IMG/VR virus record: IMGVR_UViG_3300050821_010353
Coordinates: 1 to 25,623 of that record
From: a virus
Direction: 5' to 3' (one strand)
DNA length: 25,623 nucleotides
Shown here: piece by piece, positions 2,679 to 22,227 of the stretch
How positions within the stretch are numbered: the first letter of the stretch is position 1
Layout: each line of letters starts with the position of its first letter
Program-made: the position numbers and the translations under genes
The notes under the pieces: model-generated
What the model saw: the letters and a program-made list of their open reading frames with translations, nothing else
Told to the model about the DNA's origin: nothing
The model's database searches: none

Positions 2679-3026
2679 TCAAGTCCAGACGATGCGTTCG
2701 AACAAAACCGCCGGCCCGGCGATCCAATCGAGCAATTCAGGGTCGCCCTCCTCGCGCAGCAACGTCGCGCGCCGATAGAGCGTGGTGGCGGCCTCGTTGC
2801 GCGGCAGGCGCTTCGGATGGCCCATCTCGTCGACGAACATATCGGCGCGCTTGAAGTTGAGGCCGCCGGCGAAGTCGGCCAGGACGGCGACGTGCTCGGG
2901 ATCGCACTCGCCGAGCAGGATCCGCAGCAGTTCGCGAAGTTCGTTGTAGGTCGGCCGCTCCGGCAGTTCGAACGTCCGCCGCTCCTCGGGCGAGCCCGGC
3001 TTCATGACGAGAAGGCGCGTCTCCAT
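2679..3026 (-). CDS. DUF3846-like small phage protein
   Basis: A 115-residue protein. The C-terminal half has the pattern FVDEMGHPKRLPRNEAA.. LYRRA followed by WIAGPAVLF, reminiscent of the DUF3846 family (an N..A.. motif followed by a G.A(V/L) strand) found on phages, plasmids and conjugative elements; function unknown there. I chose the ATG at 3026 rather than the longer upstream start because it forms a TGATG junction with the preceding gene. The gene sits between unknown small genes and the recombination pair in the leftward early operon, a position typical of host-takeover or counter-defence genes; that role is only inferred. Confidence 0.62.
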   Translation of the reverse strand: METRLLVMKPGSPEERRTFELPERPTYNELRELLRILLGECDPEHVAVLADFAGGLNFKRADMFVDEMGHPKRLPRNEAATTLYRRATLLREEGDPELLDWIAGPAVLFERIVWT

Positions 3027-3214: not shown

Positions 3215-3429
3215 TCCGCGGTCGCCTCCTTGCGGCTCGGCTGCGGCGCCCGTTTGCTGTTGAGCGGCGGTCGTCGCCGGGTCACATGCAATTCCGCCTC
3301 GACCTCGACCAACGCGACCTGCGCGCCGTGCAAGGCCTCCTCAAGATGCTCGACTACGTCGGTCAGATTGGCGCGAAGCCGCTCTAGCCGCGCGGTGATC
3401 GCCTCGCCGTTTCCCCGCCTCGCCGTCAT
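3211..3429 (-). CDS. Small hypothetical protein, helical
   Basis: A 72-residue protein. The first two thirds form one long predicted helix or coiled coil (ARLERLRANLTDVVEHLEEALHGAQVALVEVEAEL); the C-terminus is basic (RRRPPLNSKRAPQPSRK), so nucleic-acid binding is conceivable. The open frame extends much further upstream, but the ATG at 3429 is preferred because it overlaps the TGA of the preceding gene by 4 bases. No family recognised. Confidence 0.6.
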   Translation of the reverse strand: MTARRGNGEAITARLERLRANLTDVVEHLEEALHGAQVALVEVEAELHVTRRRPPLNSKRAPQPSRKEATAE

Positions 3430-4043
3430 GCGCGCACCCTCGTCGCCATCGCGGCCCGCTCGATTTGCGTTAGGTCCCATTGAGCGACCACAAGCCAAAG
3501 GTCGGCCAGACCGATGCGGCGCAGCAGCAGCGGATCGGTCGGCGGCATGGGCGACCAGGTCGCCTCCCACAAAATCGAATAATTCTCCAAGCCGCGCTTC
3601 GGGCGCAGGTGCAGCGGAGGCGTCGGCACCAGCGAGGCGGCGCGCCATTTGCCTCGGTTCGGCAGCGGCGCAAACGATCCGGCCGGCCAATGAAGGATGT
3701 TGCGCGACCGCATCACGGTCCAGCCCGGGCCGCGCCGGTAGCGCGCCCGCGCGTCGTCGGCGGCCATCGTGACCGAGCCATCATGGCTCATGGTCGCGAC
3801 GCAGGTCAGCGCGTCGGCGCGGCATAGCGCCAGCTTGGGAAAGCCGACGCCTTCGCCCTCGGTATTGACCCCGGCGGCCTTCACACTTTCGAGCGCTTGG
3901 ATGACCAGCCGGCCGAGGGCGAGGAATTGATAGGCGCGCATACATTCGCGGTCGATCGGCCGCGACCAGTGCACGTGTTTCTTGTATTCGCGATAGAGTT
4001 CGCGGGCCTTGCCGCGATCAAGCTCGACGGAAACGGCGTGCAT
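3426..4043 (-). CDS. Hypothetical protein, first gene of the leftward early operon
   Basis: A 205-residue protein and the first gene transcribed from the leftward promoter. The N-terminus is charged and helical (ARELYREYKKHVHWSR..D..CMRAYQFLALG). The C-terminal half reads LENYSILWEATWSPMPPTDPLLLRRI..ADLWLVVAQWDLTQIERAAM, a segment that looks like a conserved globular domain, but I cannot name it. A GAGG ribosome-binding sequence lies about 7 bases upstream of the ATG at 4043, and the start is only about 20-25 bases downstream of the predicted transcription start. Operator 1 overlaps its 5' leader, so it should be switched off in lysogens. Confidence 0.7.
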   Translation of the reverse strand: MHAVSVELDRGKARELYREYKKHVHWSRPIDRECMRAYQFLALGRLVIQALESVKAAGVNTEGEGVGFPKLALCRADALTCVATMSHDGSVTMAADDARARYRRGPGWTVMRSRNILHWPAGSFAPLPNRGKWRAASLVPTPPLHLRPKRGLENYSILWEATWSPMPPTDPLLLRRIGLADLWLVVAQWDLTQIERAAMATRVRA

Positions 4044-4047
4044 TGAG

Positions 4048-4064
4048 GTTGCCTCGTGGCCAAC
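4048..4064. promoter_or_regulatory. Repressor operator copy 1
   Basis: GTTGCCTCGTGGCCAAC, a 17-bp dyad with outer arms GTTG/CAAC. It lies just downstream of the leftward -10 region and just upstream of the first leftward gene. It shares its length and arms with four other copies in the window. Its centre is 26 bp from that of copy 2, about two and a half helical turns. Confidence 0.75.
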
Positions 4065-4070
4065 GGGATG

Positions 4071-4099
4071 ATCGTTGGCGATAAGGCAACCTTTGTCAA
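4071..4099 (-). promoter_or_regulatory. Leftward early promoter
   Basis: On the minus strand a perfect -35 box TTGACA (4099-4094) is followed after 17 bases by a weak -10 AACGAT (4076-4071). Operator copy 2 fills the spacer. Transcription would start near 4064 and run into the leftward operon. The arrangement is that of a repressible phage early promoter. Confidence 0.65.
4074..4090. promoter_or_regulatory. Repressor operator copy 2
   Basis: GTTGGCGATAAGGCAAC, a 17-bp dyad lying between the -35 and -10 boxes of the leftward promoter. Binding here would block RNA polymerase directly. Together with copy 1 it forms a larger nested palindrome across about 47 bp. Confidence 0.78.
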
Positions 4100-4121: not shown

Positions 4122-4499
4122 CTATGGCTCGGATTTTGGCGGGCGCATCATGACTTCTAAAACGCTCAGATAGTGCTCGCGCTCCTCGGGCGAGAGGTGT
4201 TCGAGCATGGCGTCGGCGGACTTGAAGTCCGGCGGGAAAAAAAATTGCCACGGCTTGATCGAGAGCGCTTTCGCCAGACGGAACTGGACAAGCAGGCTGT
4301 AGGCGCGGTGGCCGCGTTCATAGCGGGAAATCTCGCCTTTGCTGGTTTTGAGCGCGGCGGCCAAGTCCTCTTGGGACATGCCGCGAAACTCCCGCCACTC
4401 CTTGAGATAAAAGCGGTATCCGTCGCGCTCGCCTTTCGGCGCGCTGATAAAAACTCGGCGCCGCCGAGGCGGCCGTGGTGGTGGCTTGGACGTTGGCAT
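4122..4499 (-). CDS. XRE-family immunity repressor (CI-like, short)
   Basis: A 125-residue DNA-binding protein. A basic Pro/Arg N-terminal arm (residues 1-15) is followed by a helix-turn-helix domain: FRGMSQEDLAAALKTSKGEISRYERGHR (about 38-64). After it come a helical segment and a C-terminal region with LEHLSPEEREHYLSVLEVMM, probably for dimerisation. There is no S24 peptidase-like domain, so self-cleavage after DNA damage is not expected; induction must use another route. The ATG at 4499 is chosen over upstream starts because the dyad operator and a -10 box overlap it and a transcript starting there would be leaderless, as with lambda cI from PRM. The coding strand contains a T8 run (4237-4244). 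Position between divergent operons and operators supports the repressor role. Confidence 0.8.
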   Translation of the reverse strand: MPTSKPPPRPPRRRRVFISAPKGERDGYRFYLKEWREFRGMSQEDLAAALKTSKGEISRYERGHRAYSLLVQFRLAKALSIKPWQFFFPPDFKSADAMLEHLSPEEREHYLSVLEVMMRPPKSEP

Positions 4500-4508
4500 A
4501 TTGCCAAC
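4492..4508. promoter_or_regulatory. Repressor operator copy 3 (autoregulatory)
   Basis: GTTGGCATATTGCCAAC, a perfect 7+3+7 palindrome and the best copy of the 17-bp operator. It covers the repressor start codon (4497-4499) and overlaps the predicted -10 box of the repressor promoter, so the repressor probably limits its own synthesis. Confidence 0.8.
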
Positions 4509-4534
4509 ATACCACGAGTCGCCGCATGGGTTAA
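4506..4534 (-). promoter_or_regulatory. Repressor promoter
   Basis: On the minus strand TTAACC (-35, 4534-4529), 17 bases, TATGTT (-10, 4511-4506). Each box matches 4 of 6 consensus bases. The start point would fall at or near 4499, the first base of the repressor ATG, predicting a leaderless message. Confidence 0.5.
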
Positions 4535-4580
4535 CCCGTTTGCCTCTGGAAATTTGGGGAGTGCGCCGCCGACGCGCCAC

Positions 4581-4609
4581 TTGACGGTTCGTTGGCGGTA
4601 ACGCAACCT
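4581..4609 (+). promoter_or_regulatory. Rightward early promoter (weak -10)
   Basis: TTGACG (4581-4586), 17 bases, CAACCT (4604-4609). The -35 is good and the -10 is poor. The layout mirrors the leftward promoter, with an operator filling the spacer. A transcript would start only a few bases before the ATG at 4617, so the first gene may be leaderless. Confidence 0.45.
4591..4607. promoter_or_regulatory. Repressor operator copy 4
   Basis: GTTGGCGGTAACGCAAC, a 17-bp dyad nearly identical to copy 2, placed between the rightward promoter boxes and ending 9 bases before the first rightward gene. Occupation would silence the rightward early operon. Confidence 0.75.
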
Positions 4610-4616
4610 TAAGGGC

Positions 4617-4877
4617 ATGGGCGCCACGTTTCATCGGGCGGGGTTGAAAGACGCGCGGCTGCGGGCCGGCTTCACTCAAGCCGAACTCGCCCGGCGGATC
4701 GGCATCTCCCGCCATTTCGTGCTCGAAGTCGAGAACGGCCATCGCGACGCCGGCTACACGACGATGATGAAGTGGGTGCACGCGCTCGGCGCCGAAGGCT
4801 CGCTCGATCTGTTCCAGCAATTGAGCCGCAAAAGTAAGCCGCCGCGAACGAAAGCAGACACCGCCGAGGTGGCCTAA
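4617..4877 (+). CDS. Cro/HipB-like XRE helix-turn-helix regulator
   Basis: An 86-residue protein made almost entirely of one XRE domain: LKDARLRAGFTQAELARRIGISRHFVLEVENGHRDAGYTTMMKWVHAL (about residues 10-57), with the turn around residues 27-31 and recognition helix SRHFVLEVE. It is the first gene of the rightward early operon, opposite the repressor, which is the usual place for a Cro-like antirepressor; the domain spacing also resembles HipB/Y4mF antitoxins, but no toxin partner is adjacent. The ATG lies 9 bases after operator copy 4 and has no well-spaced ribosome-binding site, consistent with a leaderless start. Its TAA directly touches the next ATG. Confidence 0.78.
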   Translation: MGATFHRAGLKDARLRAGFTQAELARRIGISRHFVLEVENGHRDAGYTTMMKWVHALGAEGSLDLFQQLSRKSKPPRTKADTAEVA

Positions 4878-5886: not shown

Positions 5887-6230
5887 AGATCACCGGCGAC
5901 GACGCCGCGGTCATCAAGGGCATGCTCGCGCGCGGCGACAAGCAGCAATGGATCGTCGCTTGGTTCGGCGGCGACTTTAACCCGGGCCGAGTGGCGGAGA
6001 TCAGCACCGGCGCCAAGTTCGCCCATGTTGAGCCGGCGCCGCGATCGCGCCTGCCGCCTATTGGCCCCTACGTCTCCGGCCAATCGGCGCATCGCGCGCT
6101 GCTGGCGCTCGGTCCGGTCAAGGCGGCGATCGATCGGGCGATCCGCGAACTGACGGTAATCGACGAAGAACCAGGGAGGCCCAAGCGTGGACAAGAAAGT
6201 CGAGGCGCTGAGAGCGCACCCGGCGGCTGA
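5883..6230 (+). CDS. Small helix-turn-helix-like phage protein
   Basis: A 115-residue protein. The first 40 residues (DDAAVIKGMLARGDKQQWIVAWFGGDFNPGRVAEISTG) look like the resolvase/sigma-like helix-turn-helix common in small phage proteins, where a basic helix is followed by IA.WFG..N.GR..EI. The remainder is low complexity. DNA binding is therefore likely but the target is unknown. The start at 5883 overlaps the preceding stop (ATGA). Its 3' end overlaps the next gene by 44 bases, so either the last residues are dispensable or the next gene starts later. Confidence 0.65.
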   Translation: MKITGDDAAVIKGMLARGDKQQWIVAWFGGDFNPGRVAEISTGAKFAHVEPAPRSRLPPIGPYVSGQSAHRALLALGPVKAAIDRAIRELTVIDEEPGRPKRGQESRGAESAPGG

Positions 6231-7053
6231 CGCTTATCGGTTGATGGACGCCGACGAGCTTGCGGAGCTTGTCGAATCGATCGCCGCGAACGGCCTCCGC
6301 GATCCGATCACCATCGGTCGCATCGGCCGCGAGCGCTGGATCGTCGACGGTCGTAACCGTTTCAAGGCCTGCGAGATCGCGGGCGCTCCGCCAGCCTATG
6401 AAGAAATCGAGTTCGCCGACGAGGACGCTTTGCTTGCGTTCGTGGCTGACCGCAACGAGCGGCGCAACATCACCGCTGGCCAAAAGGCGATGGGCTATGC
6501 GCGGCTGTTCCCCGACGCGAAACTCACGAACGGGCGCCGCGCCAACCTCTCAGGAAAACCTGAGAGGTTGAGCCAGGGCCATTGGCAGAATCTCGTCAGT
6601 CAGGCCCGCGCCATCCTCCGCTACACGCCAGAATTGGCGGCGAAGGTCCGCGACGGCTTTCCGCTAAGCGAAGCCTATGAGGCTGCGATGACGGTCAAGC
6701 GAGCGCCTGACAGCGACGAGTTTCTTCGCGCAAAGCTGAGCGCGGCGCCCGAGTTCATGACGCTGGTGGAAGAGGGGAAAATGAGCCTGCGCGAGGCCTG
6801 CGCCGCGCTCGATGAGCGCAAGAGCGAGGAGGAGAAGCATAAAAAAATCGCGACCGGCAATCTGATCCGCATCCTCACCGCGCTTTATCCGCAAGAGGCG
6901 TCGCCTGAGCACTACGAGGCGATGATGTTCGGCGCGATCGACCGGAAATACTGGCCGGCCGGCGATCATGAAATCCCATTGACGAGCCAAACGGTGCAGG
7001 ACTGCATCGACGTCCTCTCGTTCTTGCTCAAGCGAGTGGAGGGCATGGCATGA
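6187..7053 (+). CDS. ParB/Srx-domain DNA-binding protein
   Basis: A 288-residue protein with a ParB N-terminal-type domain (residues about 1-100): ELAELVESIAANGLRDPITIGRI...WIVDGRNRFKACEIAG, where DGRNR corresponds to the DGxxR nucleotide-binding motif of ParB CTPases. ERRNITAGQKAMGYARLFP and a helix-turn-helix-like region (about 135-165, QARAILRYTPELAAKVRDGFPLSEAYEAA) resemble KorB/ParB central domains. The C-terminal third is helical. No ParA is in the window, so it may be a regulator or a methylase partner rather than a partition protein. GTG start at 6187, preceded by GGGAGG; the start overlaps the previous gene by 44 bases. The gene contains an unusual 12-bp hairpin at 6543-6570. Confidence 0.8.
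   Translation: MDKKVEALRAHPAADAYRLMDADELAELVESIAANGLRDPITIGRIGRERWIVDGRNRFKACEIAGAPPAYEEIEFADEDALLAFVADRNERRNITAGQKAMGYARLFPDAKLTNGRRANLSGKPERLSQGHWQNLVSQARAILRYTPELAAKVRDGFPLSEAYEAAMTVKRAPDSDEFLRAKLSAAPEFMTLVEEGKMSLREACAALDERKSEEEKHKKIATGNLIRILTALYPQEASPEHYEAMMFGAIDRKYWPAGDHEIPLTSQTVQDCIDVLSFLLKRVEGMA
6543..6570. repeat. Perfect 12-bp hairpin inside the ParB-like gene
   Basis: CAACCTCTCAGG (6543-6554), loop AAAA, CCTGAGAGGTTG (6559-6570). Twelve paired bases with no mismatch inside a coding region. No T-run follows on either strand, so it is not a standard terminator. It could be an RNA processing or pause site, or a protein-binding dyad. Confidence 0.85.
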
Positions 7054-12693: not shown

Positions 12694-13046
12694 GGAGGCC
12701 GTCACCCGGCGCTCACGCGATAGGTTTCTCGGATCACATCGGCTCACGAAGACGTTATGCCGTCGTCCACAGGATTGCCGTCCTCGACACATTTGGATGT
12801 TGACATATCGCAAACCAAAGCCTTCCCGCGCGATCCTGATTCTCGGCCGAAAACGTGCGGAAAAGTTGACGCCGTTTGGCGTTGACGAGGGCTCAAAAGT
12901 CGCGCTTGAGTGACATCCAACATTCTCAATAGTGTCACTCGTCCGTCACGTCGAAACCCGGATGCGCGATGCAGTCGCCCCGTTTCAGGGGCAGGGCGCA
13001 CAGCCAAGAACAGGGGGACGACAAACCCAGGGAAGGGCGCCAAGCC
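12694..13046. other. Non-coding stretch with further TGAC motifs
   Basis: No convincing gene in about 350 bases; the one open frame here (12617-12913) lacks codon bias and domains. The stretch is less GC-rich than its surroundings. It holds TTGACAT (12797-12803), a repeated GTTGACG around 12866-12887 and a second dyad, GAGTGACA (12908-12915) with TGTCACTC (12933-12940). It may extend the candidate origin or hold the promoter for 13047. A clear -35/-10 pair was not seen. Confidence 0.5.
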
Positions 13047-13508
13047 ATGACCGAGCCACGGCCGTCCGAATGCTGTCCGCAAATCGTCGCCGAGCGCGAC
13101 CAGGCCATTGTGAAGCTCGACCAGGCGATCGCCGAATGCGACCGTCTGCGAAACTATTTGCAGGAGATGTGCGCGGCGCTCAGGGTCACGTTCGACTTTG
13201 AAGCGACGGCGCGCGCCCGCGACGAGGCCATCGCCGAGCGCGACGAGGCCATCGCCGAGCGCGACTTCGTCTTGGATTTTTTGCAGGAGCTAGGCGAGGC
13301 GTTCGGCACAAGCCAGCGGCTCGGGTATCGGCCCGCGGCGCGCGGCGCCGTGTGGATCCACGCGCTCTATCCGTCGCCGGCCGCCGCCGCAGACGTCACG
13401 CTGTTGATCACCAGACTACGCGCCATGGTCGGCATGACCCAGGCGCCGTGGCGCGTGAGGGCGTTCGAGACATTTCAGGCGAGAGTCGCCGCTCAACAGC
13501 GCATCTGA
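13047..13508 (+). CDS. Coiled-coil protein with heptapeptide repeats
   Basis: A 153-residue protein. Residues about 13-80 form a long coiled coil with repeated DxAIAExD units, including two identical adjacent 7-residue copies of DEAIAER that are also identical at the DNA level (21-base tandem repeat near 13220-13262). The C-terminal part (GYRPAARGAVWIHALYPSPAAAADVTLLITRLRAMVG) is globular-looking. The ATG at 13047 is chosen because GGGAAGGG lies upstream; an open frame extends to 12969. The 21-base repeat may change copy number. No family recognised. Confidence 0.62.
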   Translation: MTEPRPSECCPQIVAERDQAIVKLDQAIAECDRLRNYLQEMCAALRVTFDFEATARARDEAIAERDEAIAERDFVLDFLQELGEAFGTSQRLGYRPAARGAVWIHALYPSPAAAADVTLLITRLRAMVGMTQAPWRVRAFETFQARVAAQQRI

Positions 13509-13521
13509 GGGCCGCGGCGCT

Positions 13522-13764
13522 ATGTTTGGATTGGGATGGCGGGAAGATTCGCCGCTCGACTTTGTGCAAACCGTCGGGCTCATCGTGATAACGGGCGTTT
13601 TGATCTATGCCGTCGCGATGCTCCGGCGCGCCATCAAAGCCGCGTTGGTGGTGCTTATGCGCGACAACGAGCGAATGAATAAACAGGTCTCCGCGGCCTG
13701 CGAGCGGATCGAGGCGCTCGAAGCGCGCGTGGCCGCCGCGGAGGCGGAGAAGGCCGACCGATAA
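13522..13764 (+). CDS. Small membrane protein with coiled-coil tail
   Basis: An 80-residue protein: a short N-terminal region, one membrane helix (residues about 14-35, VQTVGLIVITGVLIYAVAML), then a basic segment and a coiled coil (ACERIEALEARVAAAEAEKA). Topology would place the coiled coil in the cytoplasm. It is the last gene before the terminator at 13840. Such proteins occur in phages as membrane anchors or superinfection factors; no specific assignment is possible. Confidence 0.6.
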   Translation: MFGLGWREDSPLDFVQTVGLIVITGVLIYAVAMLRRAIKAALVVLMRDNERMNKQVSAACERIEALEARVAAAEAEKADR

Positions 13765-13839
13765 GAAGGCGGACACCAAGGGCCGCAGCACCCGGACGCG
13801 GGTGATTAGAGGGCGCACCGTTAAGATGCGCAAAAGTCG

Positions 13840-13870
13840 AAGGGCCGGGGCTCACACCCCCGGCCCTTTT
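13840..13870 (+). terminator. Rho-independent terminator of the rightward early operon
   Basis: AAGGGCCGGGG (13840-13850), loop CTCACAC, CCCCGGCCCTT (13858-13868), then the end of a TTTT run. An 11-bp perfect stem; the adjoining AAAAG upstream gives partial symmetry. It closes the operon that starts at 4617. Confidence 0.88.
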
Positions 13871-13874
13871 GCAT

Positions 13875-13880
13875 TTGACA
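13875..13880 (+). promoter_or_regulatory. Isolated -35-like box upstream of operator 5
   Basis: A perfect TTGACA directly after the terminator. At 17-19 bases downstream there is no good -10 (GCAGGT or similar), so it may need an activator or may not be a promoter. It is recorded because operator copy 5 lies where the -10 and start point would be. Confidence 0.3.
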
Positions 13881-13901
13881 CGCCGGCCGGCGATCGGGCA
13901 G

Positions 13902-13918
13902 GTTGCCATACCGCCAAC
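13902..13918. promoter_or_regulatory. Repressor operator copy 5 (remote)
   Basis: GTTGCCATACCGCCAAC matches the 17-bp GTTGSC-N5-SSCAAC dyad of the immunity region, about 9.3 kb away. It sits between the early terminator and the parS-like site, before the second rightward operon. This suggests that the repressor also silences that operon. Confidence 0.68.
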
Positions 13919-13956
13919 GCTCGCACCTTCCGCGGATGTAACCCGACGGCCAGCAA

Positions 13957-13972
13957 AGTTTCACGTGAAACA
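13957..13972. other. parS-like centromere site
   Basis: AGTTTCACGTGAAACA matches the widely conserved bacterial chromosomal parS consensus TGTTTCACGTGAAACA at 15 of 16 positions, with a perfect 14-bp palindrome (13958-13971). ParB proteins of many phyla, including alphaproteobacteria, bind this sequence, load as CTP clamps and spread. It is intergenic, between operator copy 5 and the next promoter. Whether the host ParB or the phage ParB-like protein (6187-7053) binds it is unknown. Confidence 0.8.
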
Positions 13973-13984
13973 GGCCTGTATCTA

Positions 13985-14013
13985 TTGCGCCCTAGGGCAG
14001 CGTGCCCTATATC
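13985..14013 (+). promoter_or_regulatory. Promoter of the second rightward operon
   Basis: TTGCGC (13985-13990), 17 bases, TATATC (14008-14013); each box matches four of six consensus bases. The spacer and downstream part contain short GCCCTA/AGGG symmetries. The start near 14020 would give a leader of about 40 bases before the GTG at 14061. It begins 12 bases after the parS-like site. Confidence 0.5.
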
Positions 14014-14060
14014 AGGGTGCGGGCGCCTTGCCCGCTTCATAGAGCAATGGAGCAACCCTA

Positions 14061-15029
14061 GTGGCCCTCAATCTCACCAAAACCTTCACCCTAAAATCCA
14101 ACGCCCAAGCCGACGTGCGGAAGGCGATCAAGCGCGGCGAATGCGCCGAAGGCGAATTCACGGTCGTCGCTCTCAGCGGCGGCTTCCGTATCGTCGCGGC
14201 GGCGCCCGACGCGTGGGCAGACGGCGAGGCCGCCAAGATCGTCATCGCGGGCGGGATCAACACGGCCGTCGTCAAGCCGGCGGAGGAGGCCGAGGACGTT
14301 CCGCTCGGCCGCTGGCCGGCCGGCGCGGTCCCGGGCCGCACCCGCGAGGAGTCGGCCGCCGCAGACGCGGCGGACATGGTCGCCCCGACGGCCGAGGCGC
14401 TGACGGCCGCTCTCGCCGCCGATCGCGACGCCGCGGCCGCTGAGGTCGAGGCGGAGCTAGAAGAGGCCCGCCGGGAGCTTCTCACCGACCCGCAGGTTCG
14501 GATCGGCTCGGCGGTTATGGCCGACTGGGAGGCGGAGCGCGCCGCCGTTGCGCGCGACGTCACCCCCGGGCTCGCCCGGCTCCGGGCCGACGAGGGCGCC
14601 GACGCAATCCGCGCCGCCGTCGTCGCTGATCAGGAGCGGGCGCTCGCCGAGGCCTCCGTCGTCGTCACCGCGCGCAAGGCCAAGGTCGAACGCGCCAAGC
14701 AGGACCGCGCCACGAAGGCGCGGCGAGTCGAGCGGGCGATCGCCAAGCTCGACCCGCCGAAGGCCGCCAGCGAGGCTCCCAAGCCCGCCAGCGCGCCAAA
14801 GGCGGCCGGCCTCTCGGCCGGCGCGACGCTGATCCTTCGCGCCCTGCTCGACGTCGCCGGCGCCGCCGGGGTGTGGGTCGACCAAAAGGCCATCCCGCAC
14901 AACCTCGGCCGCGCCGCTGCGGGCTTTCTCTCCGGCCTGCAGAAGCGCGGCTTGGCGGAGCTTCGCGCGGACAAGGGCGGCAAATTCTCCGCCCGCGCCA
15001 CCCTCGCCGGATGGGAGGCGGTTCGATGA
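14061..15029 (+). CDS. Hypothetical protein with C-terminal winged-helix-like domain
   Basis: A 322-residue protein, first gene of the second rightward operon, starting at GTG. The N-terminal 70 residues form a small domain (LTKTFTLKSNAQADVRKAIKRGECAEGEFTVVALSGGFRIVAA). The middle (about 100-235) is a very long Ala/Glu/Arg-rich coiled coil. The C-terminal 75 residues (LSAGATLILRALLDVAGAAGVWVDQKAIPHNLGRAAAGFLSGLQKRGLAEL..) resemble a winged helix with a beta-hairpin wing, as in DNA-binding regulators. It could be a nucleoid-like or transcription-control protein. Being next to the parS-like site makes DNA binding interesting, but no family match is claimed. Confidence 0.68.
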   Translation: MALNLTKTFTLKSNAQADVRKAIKRGECAEGEFTVVALSGGFRIVAAAPDAWADGEAAKIVIAGGINTAVVKPAEEAEDVPLGRWPAGAVPGRTREESAAADAADMVAPTAEALTAALAADRDAAAAEVEAELEEARRELLTDPQVRIGSAVMADWEAERAAVARDVTPGLARLRADEGADAIRAAVVADQERALAEASVVVTARKAKVERAKQDRATKARRVERAIAKLDPPKAASEAPKPASAPKAAGLSAGATLILRALLDVAGAAGVWVDQKAIPHNLGRAAAGFLSGLQKRGLAELRADKGGKFSARATLAGWEAVR

Positions 15030-15352
15030 AACTCGCCATCCACTACATGCGGCCGGAGTGGTTCCGCGACGGGATTATGGGCGCCAAGCCCGACCCGGCG
15101 AACCTCTCCGCCACGCACGCCTTCCTGACCACCTTCGAGGCCCAGGAAGGCCAACCGATCGACCACGCGCTTGAGGACGTGTTCCTCCACTTTCAAGCCG
15201 AGGTCTGGTCGCCGAATGGCGAGGCCCGGGCGCTGATCGAGCGTGTGGGCCTCGGTCATACGTCGATGTCGGTCGGCGACGTGGCCGTGGTCGACGGCAA
15301 GGCGTTCGTCGTCGCCTCGTTTGGCTTCGAGCCATTGGAGGCGGTCCGATGA
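15026..15352 (+). CDS. SMSVGDV-motif (YodL-like) plasmid/phage protein
   Basis: A 108-residue protein. Its C-terminal half (HTSMSVGDVAVVDGKAFVVASFGFEPLE) carries the SMSVGDV signature, followed by a beta-hairpin and a GF.PL end, seen in small YodL-like proteins of plasmids, ICEs and phages; their role is not established to my knowledge. The N-terminal part includes the acidic helix DHALEDVFLHFQAEVWS. It overlaps the previous gene by ATGA and the next by ATGA. Confidence 0.65.
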   Translation: MKLAIHYMRPEWFRDGIMGAKPDPANLSATHAFLTTFEAQEGQPIDHALEDVFLHFQAEVWSPNGEARALIERVGLGHTSMSVGDVAVVDGKAFVVASFGFEPLEAVR

Positions 15353-21210: not shown

Positions 21211-21660
21211 GTCCGTATTGGCAAAAAACTGGCCTCGGGGCGGTCGCCTGGTAGTGGGGGGCCAAGCCGGGGCGCCGCGGGTCCTACGCCAGCCCCGCGC
21301 GCCGTACCGCCCCGCGCGACGGGCGGGGGGGCTCTGATCAAATTTCGGCCCTGCAGGGACGCGGGCGCCGGTGTAGTTTCGCTCTCGCGGCTGCACATTC
21401 CGGGGGTGTCGATAGTTCGCTCTCGCGCCCGCACATTCGGGGGTGTCGATAGTGGAGCCGATCCGCTCTTGACGCCGGGGCTCATTATCGTCATCGCTGT
21501 GTTGCTTAGTTGGCTCATTTGTTCGGGACCGCCCGTCGGTCGTGAAGGCGTCGCTGGCCGCGGTTTATGCAGCGGACGCGGCGGTTAGGCGCGAGGTGGC
21601 GGGCGTTTGAGCCGGGTTGGCGCGGGTTGCTATTCGGACAACTTATGGAGAGGCCGGGAC
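21211..21660. other. Non-coding region with tandem repeat, upstream of the PEP-CTERM gene
   Basis: About 450 bases without a credible gene. It contains G-rich tracts, a GC-rich dyad near 21305-21330 (CCGCCC with GGGCGG), the 38-base tandem repeat described next, and ends in the ribosome-binding site of the PEP-CTERM gene. Lying between the HNH nuclease and the terminase genes, it is a candidate for a packaging (cos/pac) region. No convincing promoter was found. Confidence 0.5.
21378..21452. repeat. Two tandem copies of a 37/38-base repeat
   Basis: Copy 1 is 21378-21415, copy 2 is 21416-21452. Both start TTCGCTCTCGCG, share GCACATTC in the middle and end GGGGGTGTCGATAG. They differ by one base deletion in the G/C run and two substitutions. 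No third copy follows and no spacer separates them. Confidence 0.85.
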
Positions 21661-22227
21661 ATGAACAAATTACTATTGACTAGCGCATTTATTGCCGCCT
21701 TCGGCGCCGCGCCGACAAAGGCGGCGACCGAGATCACGGTCGAGAACATTGGCTCGATCCTCAACCAGTCTCTCGCGCTCCCGGCCCAGGACACGCCTGG
21801 CGGCGGCATCGGCTTCGAGCAATTTTTCGAGTTCAGTTTGCCGACCAGGGAAACCGTCACGGTGTCGATGAGCGACAGCGCCATCGGCCTGCAACGGATC
21901 ACCGGCGGCGTGCTTTCGCTCAACGATTTTACTTCGAGCGCGCCGACTTCGCCCTTCCAACCGATCGGGGCGCTGATCGAATCATCGCCGATCCTCAATG
22001 TCACTGGCGGCCAGGAAGCGACGGTCAGTCCTGACATCTTGAGCGCGGGCTCATACTTTGCTGAGCTTTCCGGCGCGAGCGGCCTGGCGCCGATCCACAT
22101 TGCGATCGACGGCACCATCACCGCGGTCTCGACGCCCGAACCTTCGACTTGGGCGATGTTGGCGCTCGGTTTCGGCGCGATGGCGTTCCTCGGCTTGCGG
22201 CGCAAGTCGGCCCGGTTTGCGTTCTAA
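21661..22227 (+). CDS. PEP-CTERM-tagged exported protein
   Basis: A 188-residue secreted protein. An N-terminal signal peptide (MNKLLLTSAFIAAFGAAPTKAA) is followed by a beta-rich extracellular domain (TETVTVSMSDS..., FFEFSLPTRETVTVSMSD). It ends in a sorting tag: STPEPSTWAMLALGFGAMAF (PEP motif then membrane helix), followed by RRK. Host exosortases recognise such tags and remove them during export, usually linked to exopolysaccharide. The start at 21661 is supported by GGAGAGG 8 bases upstream and by the signal peptide. The first codons are AT-richer than in neighbouring genes, hinting at separate acquisition. Its place among packaging genes is unusual and suggests a cargo (moron) gene. Confidence 0.85.
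   Translation: MNKLLLTSAFIAAFGAAPTKAATEITVENIGSILNQSLALPAQDTPGGGIGFEQFFEFSLPTRETVTVSMSDSAIGLQRITGGVLSLNDFTSSAPTSPFQPIGALIESSPILNVTGGQEATVSPDILSAGSYFAELSGASGLAPIHIAIDGTITAVSTPEPSTWAMLALGFGAMAFLGLRRKSARFAF

Follow-up and report, generated by a model that had tools for sequence, protein, structure and literature searches.

ParB in its CTP-bound form is described to load at parS and subsequently to slide (PMC12704722), and the sequence of its target was reported as TGTTTCACGTGAAACA for Hyphomonas and as t/cGTTt/cCACGTGAAAca for Caulobacter (PMC7022226). In Pseudomonas aeruginosa, the chromosomal ParB represses promoters located beside the intergenic sites parS3 and parS4 (PMC5521831; PMC7022226), and in Caulobacter the harm caused by extra parS depends on their place (PMC5815017). 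Mimics of parS on the mobile element SGI1 bind a plasmid ParB and stabilise SGI1 (PMC10954446). A lone parS of the host type on a phage is described neither in the titles and abstract openings of the papers listed from the PMC literature, a collection where subscription journals are mostly outside, nor in the accessible portions of PMC10197239, PMC12704722, PMC13190303, PMC11652158, PMC7157519 and PMC7022226.

A site of this sequence type is found in the DNA investigated here, a virus record from IMG/VR that comprises 25,623 bases, with genes for terminase, VapE-like and RecE-like proteins, and whose entire length is referred to as the window. The features that are relevant for its description, with their counterparts in the related phages G305 and G001, are as follows:

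4122-4820, minus strand: regulator with family matches to HTH proteins of the Cro/C1 type, a putative repressor
6187-7053, plus strand: ParB_N-domain protein (PF02195, E 7.3e-5; its 23.2 bits fall short of the curated cut-off of 26.3)
13840-13870, plus strand: terminator-like GC-rich hairpin with T-run, 3' of ORF 13522-13764, read by eye
13875-13880, plus strand: TTGACA, resembling a -35 element with no clear -10, 6 of 6 positions the same in G305
13902-13918, unstranded: operator-like inverted repeat GTTGCC-N5-GCCAAC, 13 of 17 positions the same in G305
13955-13972, unstranded: 18-bp block AAAGTTTCACGTGAAACA, 18 of 18 positions identical at the same place in G305
13957-13972, unstranded: parS-type site AGTTTCACGTGAAACA, with the perfect 14-bp palindrome GTTTCACGTGAAAC at 13958-13971
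13985-14013, plus strand: promoter-like TTGCGC-17-TATATC with operator-like GCCCTAGGGCA...TGCCC inside, 12 bp past the parS-type site
14061-15029, plus strand: gene downstream of the parS-type site, with orthologues in G305 (69% amino acid identity) and G001 (53%)

The agreement of AGTTTCACGTGAAACA with the parS consensus TGTTTCACGTGAAACA at 15 of 16 positions and the perfect palindrome, both stated in a preliminary description of this DNA, were confirmed, with the single mismatch residing at position 1 and all 14 positions of the core being preserved, so that the site conforms to chromosomal-type parS in its 16-bp consensus and its intact core. It is the sole site in the window within three mismatches of TGTTTCACGTGAAACA, and 100 dinucleotide-preserving shuffles of the window contained none within the same distance of the 16-mer. 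As many windows had been read when this site was selected, its rarity in 25 kb is weak evidence on its own, and the case is carried by its conservation in G305 together with the counts obtained from phage collections. The site is located between ORFs 13522-13764 and 14061-15029, with the only overlapping ORFs being ones without further support, and it showed no match in Rfam. The proximity to parAB or oriC that characterises chromosomal-type parS was not found in the window, where no ParA was detected and the sole ParB_N match remains below its cut-off. The site belongs to the parS sequence type, and is not the host's own centromere.

Its surroundings are in line with the claimed intergenic position between a repressor operator and a promoter, as an operator-like repeat and a promoter-like element were both found. 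The inverted repeat at 13902-13918 is perfect in its G305 version, and two similar repeats are present at 4048-4064 and 4074-4090. Since the HTH gene (4122-4820, minus strand) ends before the latter, which in turn precede ORF 3426-4043 on the same strand, we can only infer that these repeats would constitute operators of the HTH protein. A strict sigma-70 scan of 13600-14200 listed no promoter, TTGCGC-17-TATATC included, and the hairpin at 13840-13870 is missing from a program-made scan for terminators and promoters. A terminator hairpin as general reason for the palindrome was rejected by argument, because any hairpin would do, yet the sequence stays constant. The protein encoded by 14061-15029 matched no Pfam or PHROG family at E 0.001.

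The related phage G305 was found in a scan for the parS core followed by the promoter motif, in which one other record matched. Whereas the window is a fragment, G305 (67,749 bases) looks nearly complete, because its ends overlap by 248 bases at 99.6%. It contains one site within two mismatches, which resides at the same intergenic place ahead of the orthologue of 14061-15029, so that the 16-mer recurs at the proposed location as part of the identical 18-bp block. Outside the elements, only 47 of 112 positions are identical in the alignment of 13872-14054, whereas the promoter-like element is preserved at 28 of 30 positions (13985-14014). The 12-bp spacer between parS block and TTGCGC is constant in length and identical at 5 of 12 positions. 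With positions treated as independent, the chance of 18 identical bases is about 1.6e-7 at the observed background, and it would rise to about 5.6e-3 were the true background 0.75. The site is thus conserved above the neighbouring DNA, as in chromosomal-type parS, in one phage. Besides G305, only G001 was found to encode an orthologue of 14061-15029, and it carries no exact site; its one-mismatch site is contained inside a gene, and there is one further site with two mismatches. The former was dropped as support since it is coding sequence (codons VARET) and is absent from the orthologue in the window. The site is therefore kept in two of the three phages known to carry the downstream gene, and apart from the window a single phage attests it at precisely this position.

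Further searches defined the range of this conservation. Among seven stretches with the promoter motif, of which three are from, or apparently the same as, G001, a parS within two mismatches was present only in that of G305 in the DNA fetched. Four further records that are related through another protein contained no site within two mismatches, and 33 more records none within one mismatch. As a query, the window protein of 14061-15029 alone found no relatives, a three-protein alignment including the orthologues recovered only G305 and G001, and an alignment search of the downstream gene in 298 genomes of the host family, with at most seven first-look candidates per genome scored and no positive control, provided none among the matches listed. 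A VapE search found two distant relatives only, and the DNA of 13000-15100 showed no similarity to named phages. Family scans of 55 among the 85 ORFs picked in G305, and of 40 among the 71 in G001, identified a match to the phage integrase family in each. Both phages also contain one PEP-CTERM match, an unusual phage cargo, and the window gene 21607-22227 ends in a PEP-CTERM-like sorting signal, as recognised by eye. The window region 19957-20466 matches a gene-bearing stretch of G305, which has one NusG-domain protein; if the two genes correspond, the region possibly encodes a phage antiterminator. The record end at 1-468 is GC-rich and looks low in complexity, with similar stretches found several times between 13.5 and 17.9 kb of G001.

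The preliminary description of a lone parS without ParA is supported by PF13614, which matched none of the three records (window, G001 and G305) but all 14 controls. A partnership of the site with the ParB-like protein of the window gained no support, as G305 keeps the site without a counterpart of this protein, which G001 lacks as well (no tblastn hit better than E 0.36 in the pieces of the two phages). We consider such a partnership unlikely also because the protein shares only 28% identity with Roseiarcus ParB over the aligned part and leaves the GHAR stretch of the host protein unmatched. Its best solved relatives are ParB-family chains. For G305 itself, the scan of 55 proteins yielded two ParB_N matches. 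Since 6187-7053 is without a counterpart in G305, the host ParB appears the likelier ligand of the site. A phage-encoded parABS cassette of the P1 or RedRock type was not found, with no PF13614 match in the three records and the ParB_N gene about 7 kb away from the site. What the window, itself a fragment, displays is a lone parS that matches the one of another replicon and is not accompanied by parAB of its own, as in the centromere mimicry of mobile elements such as SGI1.

The probable hosts, as judged from one neighbouring phage protein, are relatives of Roseiarcus and Rhodoblastus. This protein has relatives at 13 loci in 11 genomes, with the four strongest (54-60% identity) located in Rhodoblastus (two), a Rhizobiales MAG and Roseiarcus, and the weaker ones in other Rhizobiales and also in Psychromonas, Vibrio, Ferrimonas, Syntrophales-type and Acidimicrobiaceae contigs. 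The consensus TGTTTCACGTGAAACA was present in all five Rhizobiales genomes that were searched out of these 11, relatives of Roseiarcus and Rhodoblastus, and in each of them one or more exact copies are located within about 1.3-5 kb of the best match to parB. In the Roseiarcus family, the 14-bp core was detected in 278 of 298 genomes, mostly in one to three copies, whereas a control palindrome read backward was found in none among the rows listed. The phage site thus shares its core with the parS of its probable hosts. Eight of the 298 genomes (G006, G152, G180, G206, G229, G244, G257 and G264) contain 10-61 exact cores, an expansion beyond the usual one to three, with the 17 cores of the Rhodoblastus MAG G006 being scattered across many contigs and several of them intergenic.

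The same motif recurs in named phages, where the 16-mer, flanked by A/T on one side or both, was found in 198 of 50,697 records at 578 places (the palindrome being counted on both strands), whereas two control palindromes had no match. Its frequency in phages at large is thus far above that of the controls. The presence of the full 16-mer in all 198 was deduced from the matches listed (17 or 18 of 18 bases), which leave about one third of the rows aside, and from the E-value limit. With C..G flanks it was found in 34 records and with T..A flanks in 117, but these three sets have records in common and contain closely similar phages as well as RefSeq duplicates, and thus do not count independent events. 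The matches listed comprise Bacillus phi29-like, Listeria, Lactobacillus, Gordonia, Microbacterium, Arthrobacter, Ruegeria and Butyrivibrio phages, as well as microviruses and inoviruses. Many sites are placed inside annotated genes (Listeria A511/P100, Microbacterium, B103), and many records are here explained by the common descent of a single coding sequence, and part of the 198 that is unannotated (gut contigs and 'LM' Listeria contigs) could be host DNA. A second variant, TGTTCCACGTGGAACA, which we take to be the Pseudomonas-type parS, was contained in 41 records, ten each from Pseudomonas and Klebsiella, with a baseplate wedge gene named in three of the Klebsiella rows. Enterobacterales are not known to have a chromosomal parABS, and the Klebsiella matches would therefore reflect chance, shared descent or another function. 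That they are as frequent as those of Pseudomonas leaves host specificity unproven and argues against simple host matching. Mycobacterium phages, though well sampled (182 records matched terminase), are absent from the ten commonest names among the 198, which emphasises that the pattern is not universal, although they or enterobacterial phages may be included in the 12 minor organism names, of which ten are listed. The parS of the Mycobacterium host has the same core (PMC7022226). In two phages the arrangement is distinct: the inovirus bajarodino virus 3 (L240, 6183 bases) contains six full 16-bp sites, and in Gordonia phage Woes (L239) the sites at 2581-2596 and 3002-3017 are embedded in longer perfect palindromes and belong to an intergenic cassette that is repeated, with gene starts following after 56 and 69 bp.

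In IMG/VR, the core was found in at least 120 stretches, compared to a single one for a control 16-mer across the whole collection. Among the matches listed, the full 16-mer was present in 71 of 120 core-bearing loci, where about eight are expected from composition, and the core is flanked by T..A, as in host parS, at 94 of 148 sites in these loci. Of the sites with the full 16-mer listed, 35 of 94 are located outside called ORFs, compared to about nine for random positions. A ParB match was found in one of the 120 loci listed, which are parts of records, with nine of the ten queries used for this purpose being valid and the one from L188 corresponding to an antisense ORF. When one large protein each from 20 loci, hand-picked from 36 listed and thus not random, was compared to PHROGs, all 20 matched, 13 of them to head, packaging or tail families. 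In nine of 28 loci with a related large terminase, among the 120 listed, the core precedes the estimated start of the terminase by 37-160 bp, and these cores are perhaps tied to the packaging region. Their terminases (L015, L034, L045, L047, L071, L075, L100, L110 and L117) are 56-90% identical to the query, and in L100 and L117 the 14-bp core alone is exact.

Our best explanation is based on the sequence, the identity of its core with host parS, the conservation in G305 with diverged flanks, the absence of ParA from the records scanned and the excess of the 16-mer. These features make it quite likely that the site functions as a host-type parS that is carried alone, and that host ParB would load there and slide onto neighbouring phage DNA. 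In such a mechanism, host ParB as a CTP-dependent clamp would enter at the phage parS and spread onto the adjoining DNA, where it might tie this DNA to the segregation and SMC machinery of the host during the stay of the phage in the cell and might modulate the adjacent promoter. Since the site is found just upstream of a promoter-like element in both the window and G305, ParB would probably serve one of these roles or both. Binding and all subsequent steps are here predicted from precedents and from the anatomy of the locus. If ParB binds, we see an about even chance for a role in partition or positioning, regard promoter control as a tentative possibility, and hold another role, such as SMC loading, a decoy or a function linked to packaging, to be unlikely. 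The earlier proposal of a plasmid-like prophage has no advantage over other roles, as G305 and G001, each with a match to the phage integrase family, appear to integrate and would have less need for partition in the style of a plasmid.

Other explanations have to be weighed against this view. With many windows read, a match in one phage might have arisen by chance, a given 14-mer having, at even composition, an expected spacing of about 270 megabases, but this appears barely credible in light of the site at the same place in G305 despite its diverged flanks, and of control palindromes that are nearly absent from phage collections and were not found among the rows listed for the 298 host-family genomes. 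The palindrome could instead serve a regulator of the phage, or the ParB-like protein that the phage encodes, as an operator with mere resemblance to parS. Its location in regulatory intergenic DNA, where the promoter-like element follows after 12 bp and another inverted repeat is adjoining, would be compatible with such a role, as would the HTH and ParB_N proteins encoded in the window and the two ParB_N matches among the 55 proteins scanned in G305. We nevertheless consider it improbable, since the exact 16 bp recur in phages as different as an inovirus (six sites), microviruses, phi29-like podoviruses and siphoviruses, which are unlikely to share a regulator, whereas ParB is common in hosts. 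The bias of the core flanks towards T..A at 94 of the 148 sites listed from IMG/VR, as in host parS, and the lack of a G305 counterpart of the window's ParB-like protein point in the same direction, as does the single copy in both the window and G305, with phage operators being usually repeated.

The two remaining alternatives both assume that ParB is recruited. It might act mainly as a transcription factor for 13985-14013, by repression or anti-silencing, with no role in segregation. Transcription is estimated to start about 55 bp after the centre of the parS, the distance of 16 nt between the conserved block and GCCCTAGGG is the same in the window and G305 despite the divergence of the spacer, and P. 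aeruginosa ParB represses promoters adjoining parS3 and parS4 (PMC5521831). Three elements like TTGCGC-17-TATATC in G001 are, however, all without parS and many sites of other phages are found in annotated genes, which renders a purely transcriptional role rather doubtful. Alternatively, the extra parS on replicating phage DNA might be a decoy that titrates or misplaces host ParB and disturbs the host cell cycle, as could be expected from the harm that is inflicted on Caulobacter by an extra parS on a plasmid or mid-arm in the chromosome (PMC5815017). We regard this as very improbable, given that the window and G305 contain one site each and that an integrated prophage would pay the cost as well.

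We return to a parS that host ParB would recognise. The occurrence of the 16-mer at the same spot in a relative and in many other phages suggests that phages may borrow this protein. We are inclined, with some reservation, to extend the proposal to lone copies of host centromeres as a recurrent and convergently acquired feature of tailed, filamentous and microviruses from several host phyla, of which the site in the window would be one alphaproteobacterial case, and where the loaded clamps of host ParB would control position, segregation, packaging or expression of phage DNA. If true, phages without a partition cassette would plug into the chromosome segregation of their host by a sequence of 16 bp, which would constitute a new interface between host and phage and a reason to look for effects of ParB and SMC during infection, with Bacillus subtilis and the phi29-like phage B103, Ruegeria and DSS3P8, and Caulobacter ParB in vitro offering models.

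Compared to the systems described so far, as documented in the accessible portions of the cited work, the locus combines features of several. With extrachromosomal prophages such as P1 and the actinophage RedRock it shares a parS on a phage genome, but both encode parA and parB, with RedRock repeating an 8-bp motif, whereas in the window no ParA was found and the sequence is the host's own (PMC7157519). With parS3 and parS4 of P. aeruginosa it shares the intergenic position upstream of a gene whose expression could be set by ParB, but these sites are chromosomal and their regulation was measured, whereas the site in the window is located on a phage and known from its sequence (PMC5521831). To the parS of chromosomal ParABS systems it corresponds in its palindromic nature, the same 14-bp core and the agreement at 15 of 16 positions (PMC7022226), although it is found on a phage, as a single copy and with neither parA nor a canonical parB beside it. 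In SGI1, finally, two copies mimic the parS of a plasmid and their binding was shown, whereas the phage carries a site of the host-chromosome type recognised from its sequence; what SGI1, with its relation to the parABS of IncC plasmids, and the phage have in common is a mobile element that carries the centromere sequence of another replicon's system (PMC10954446).
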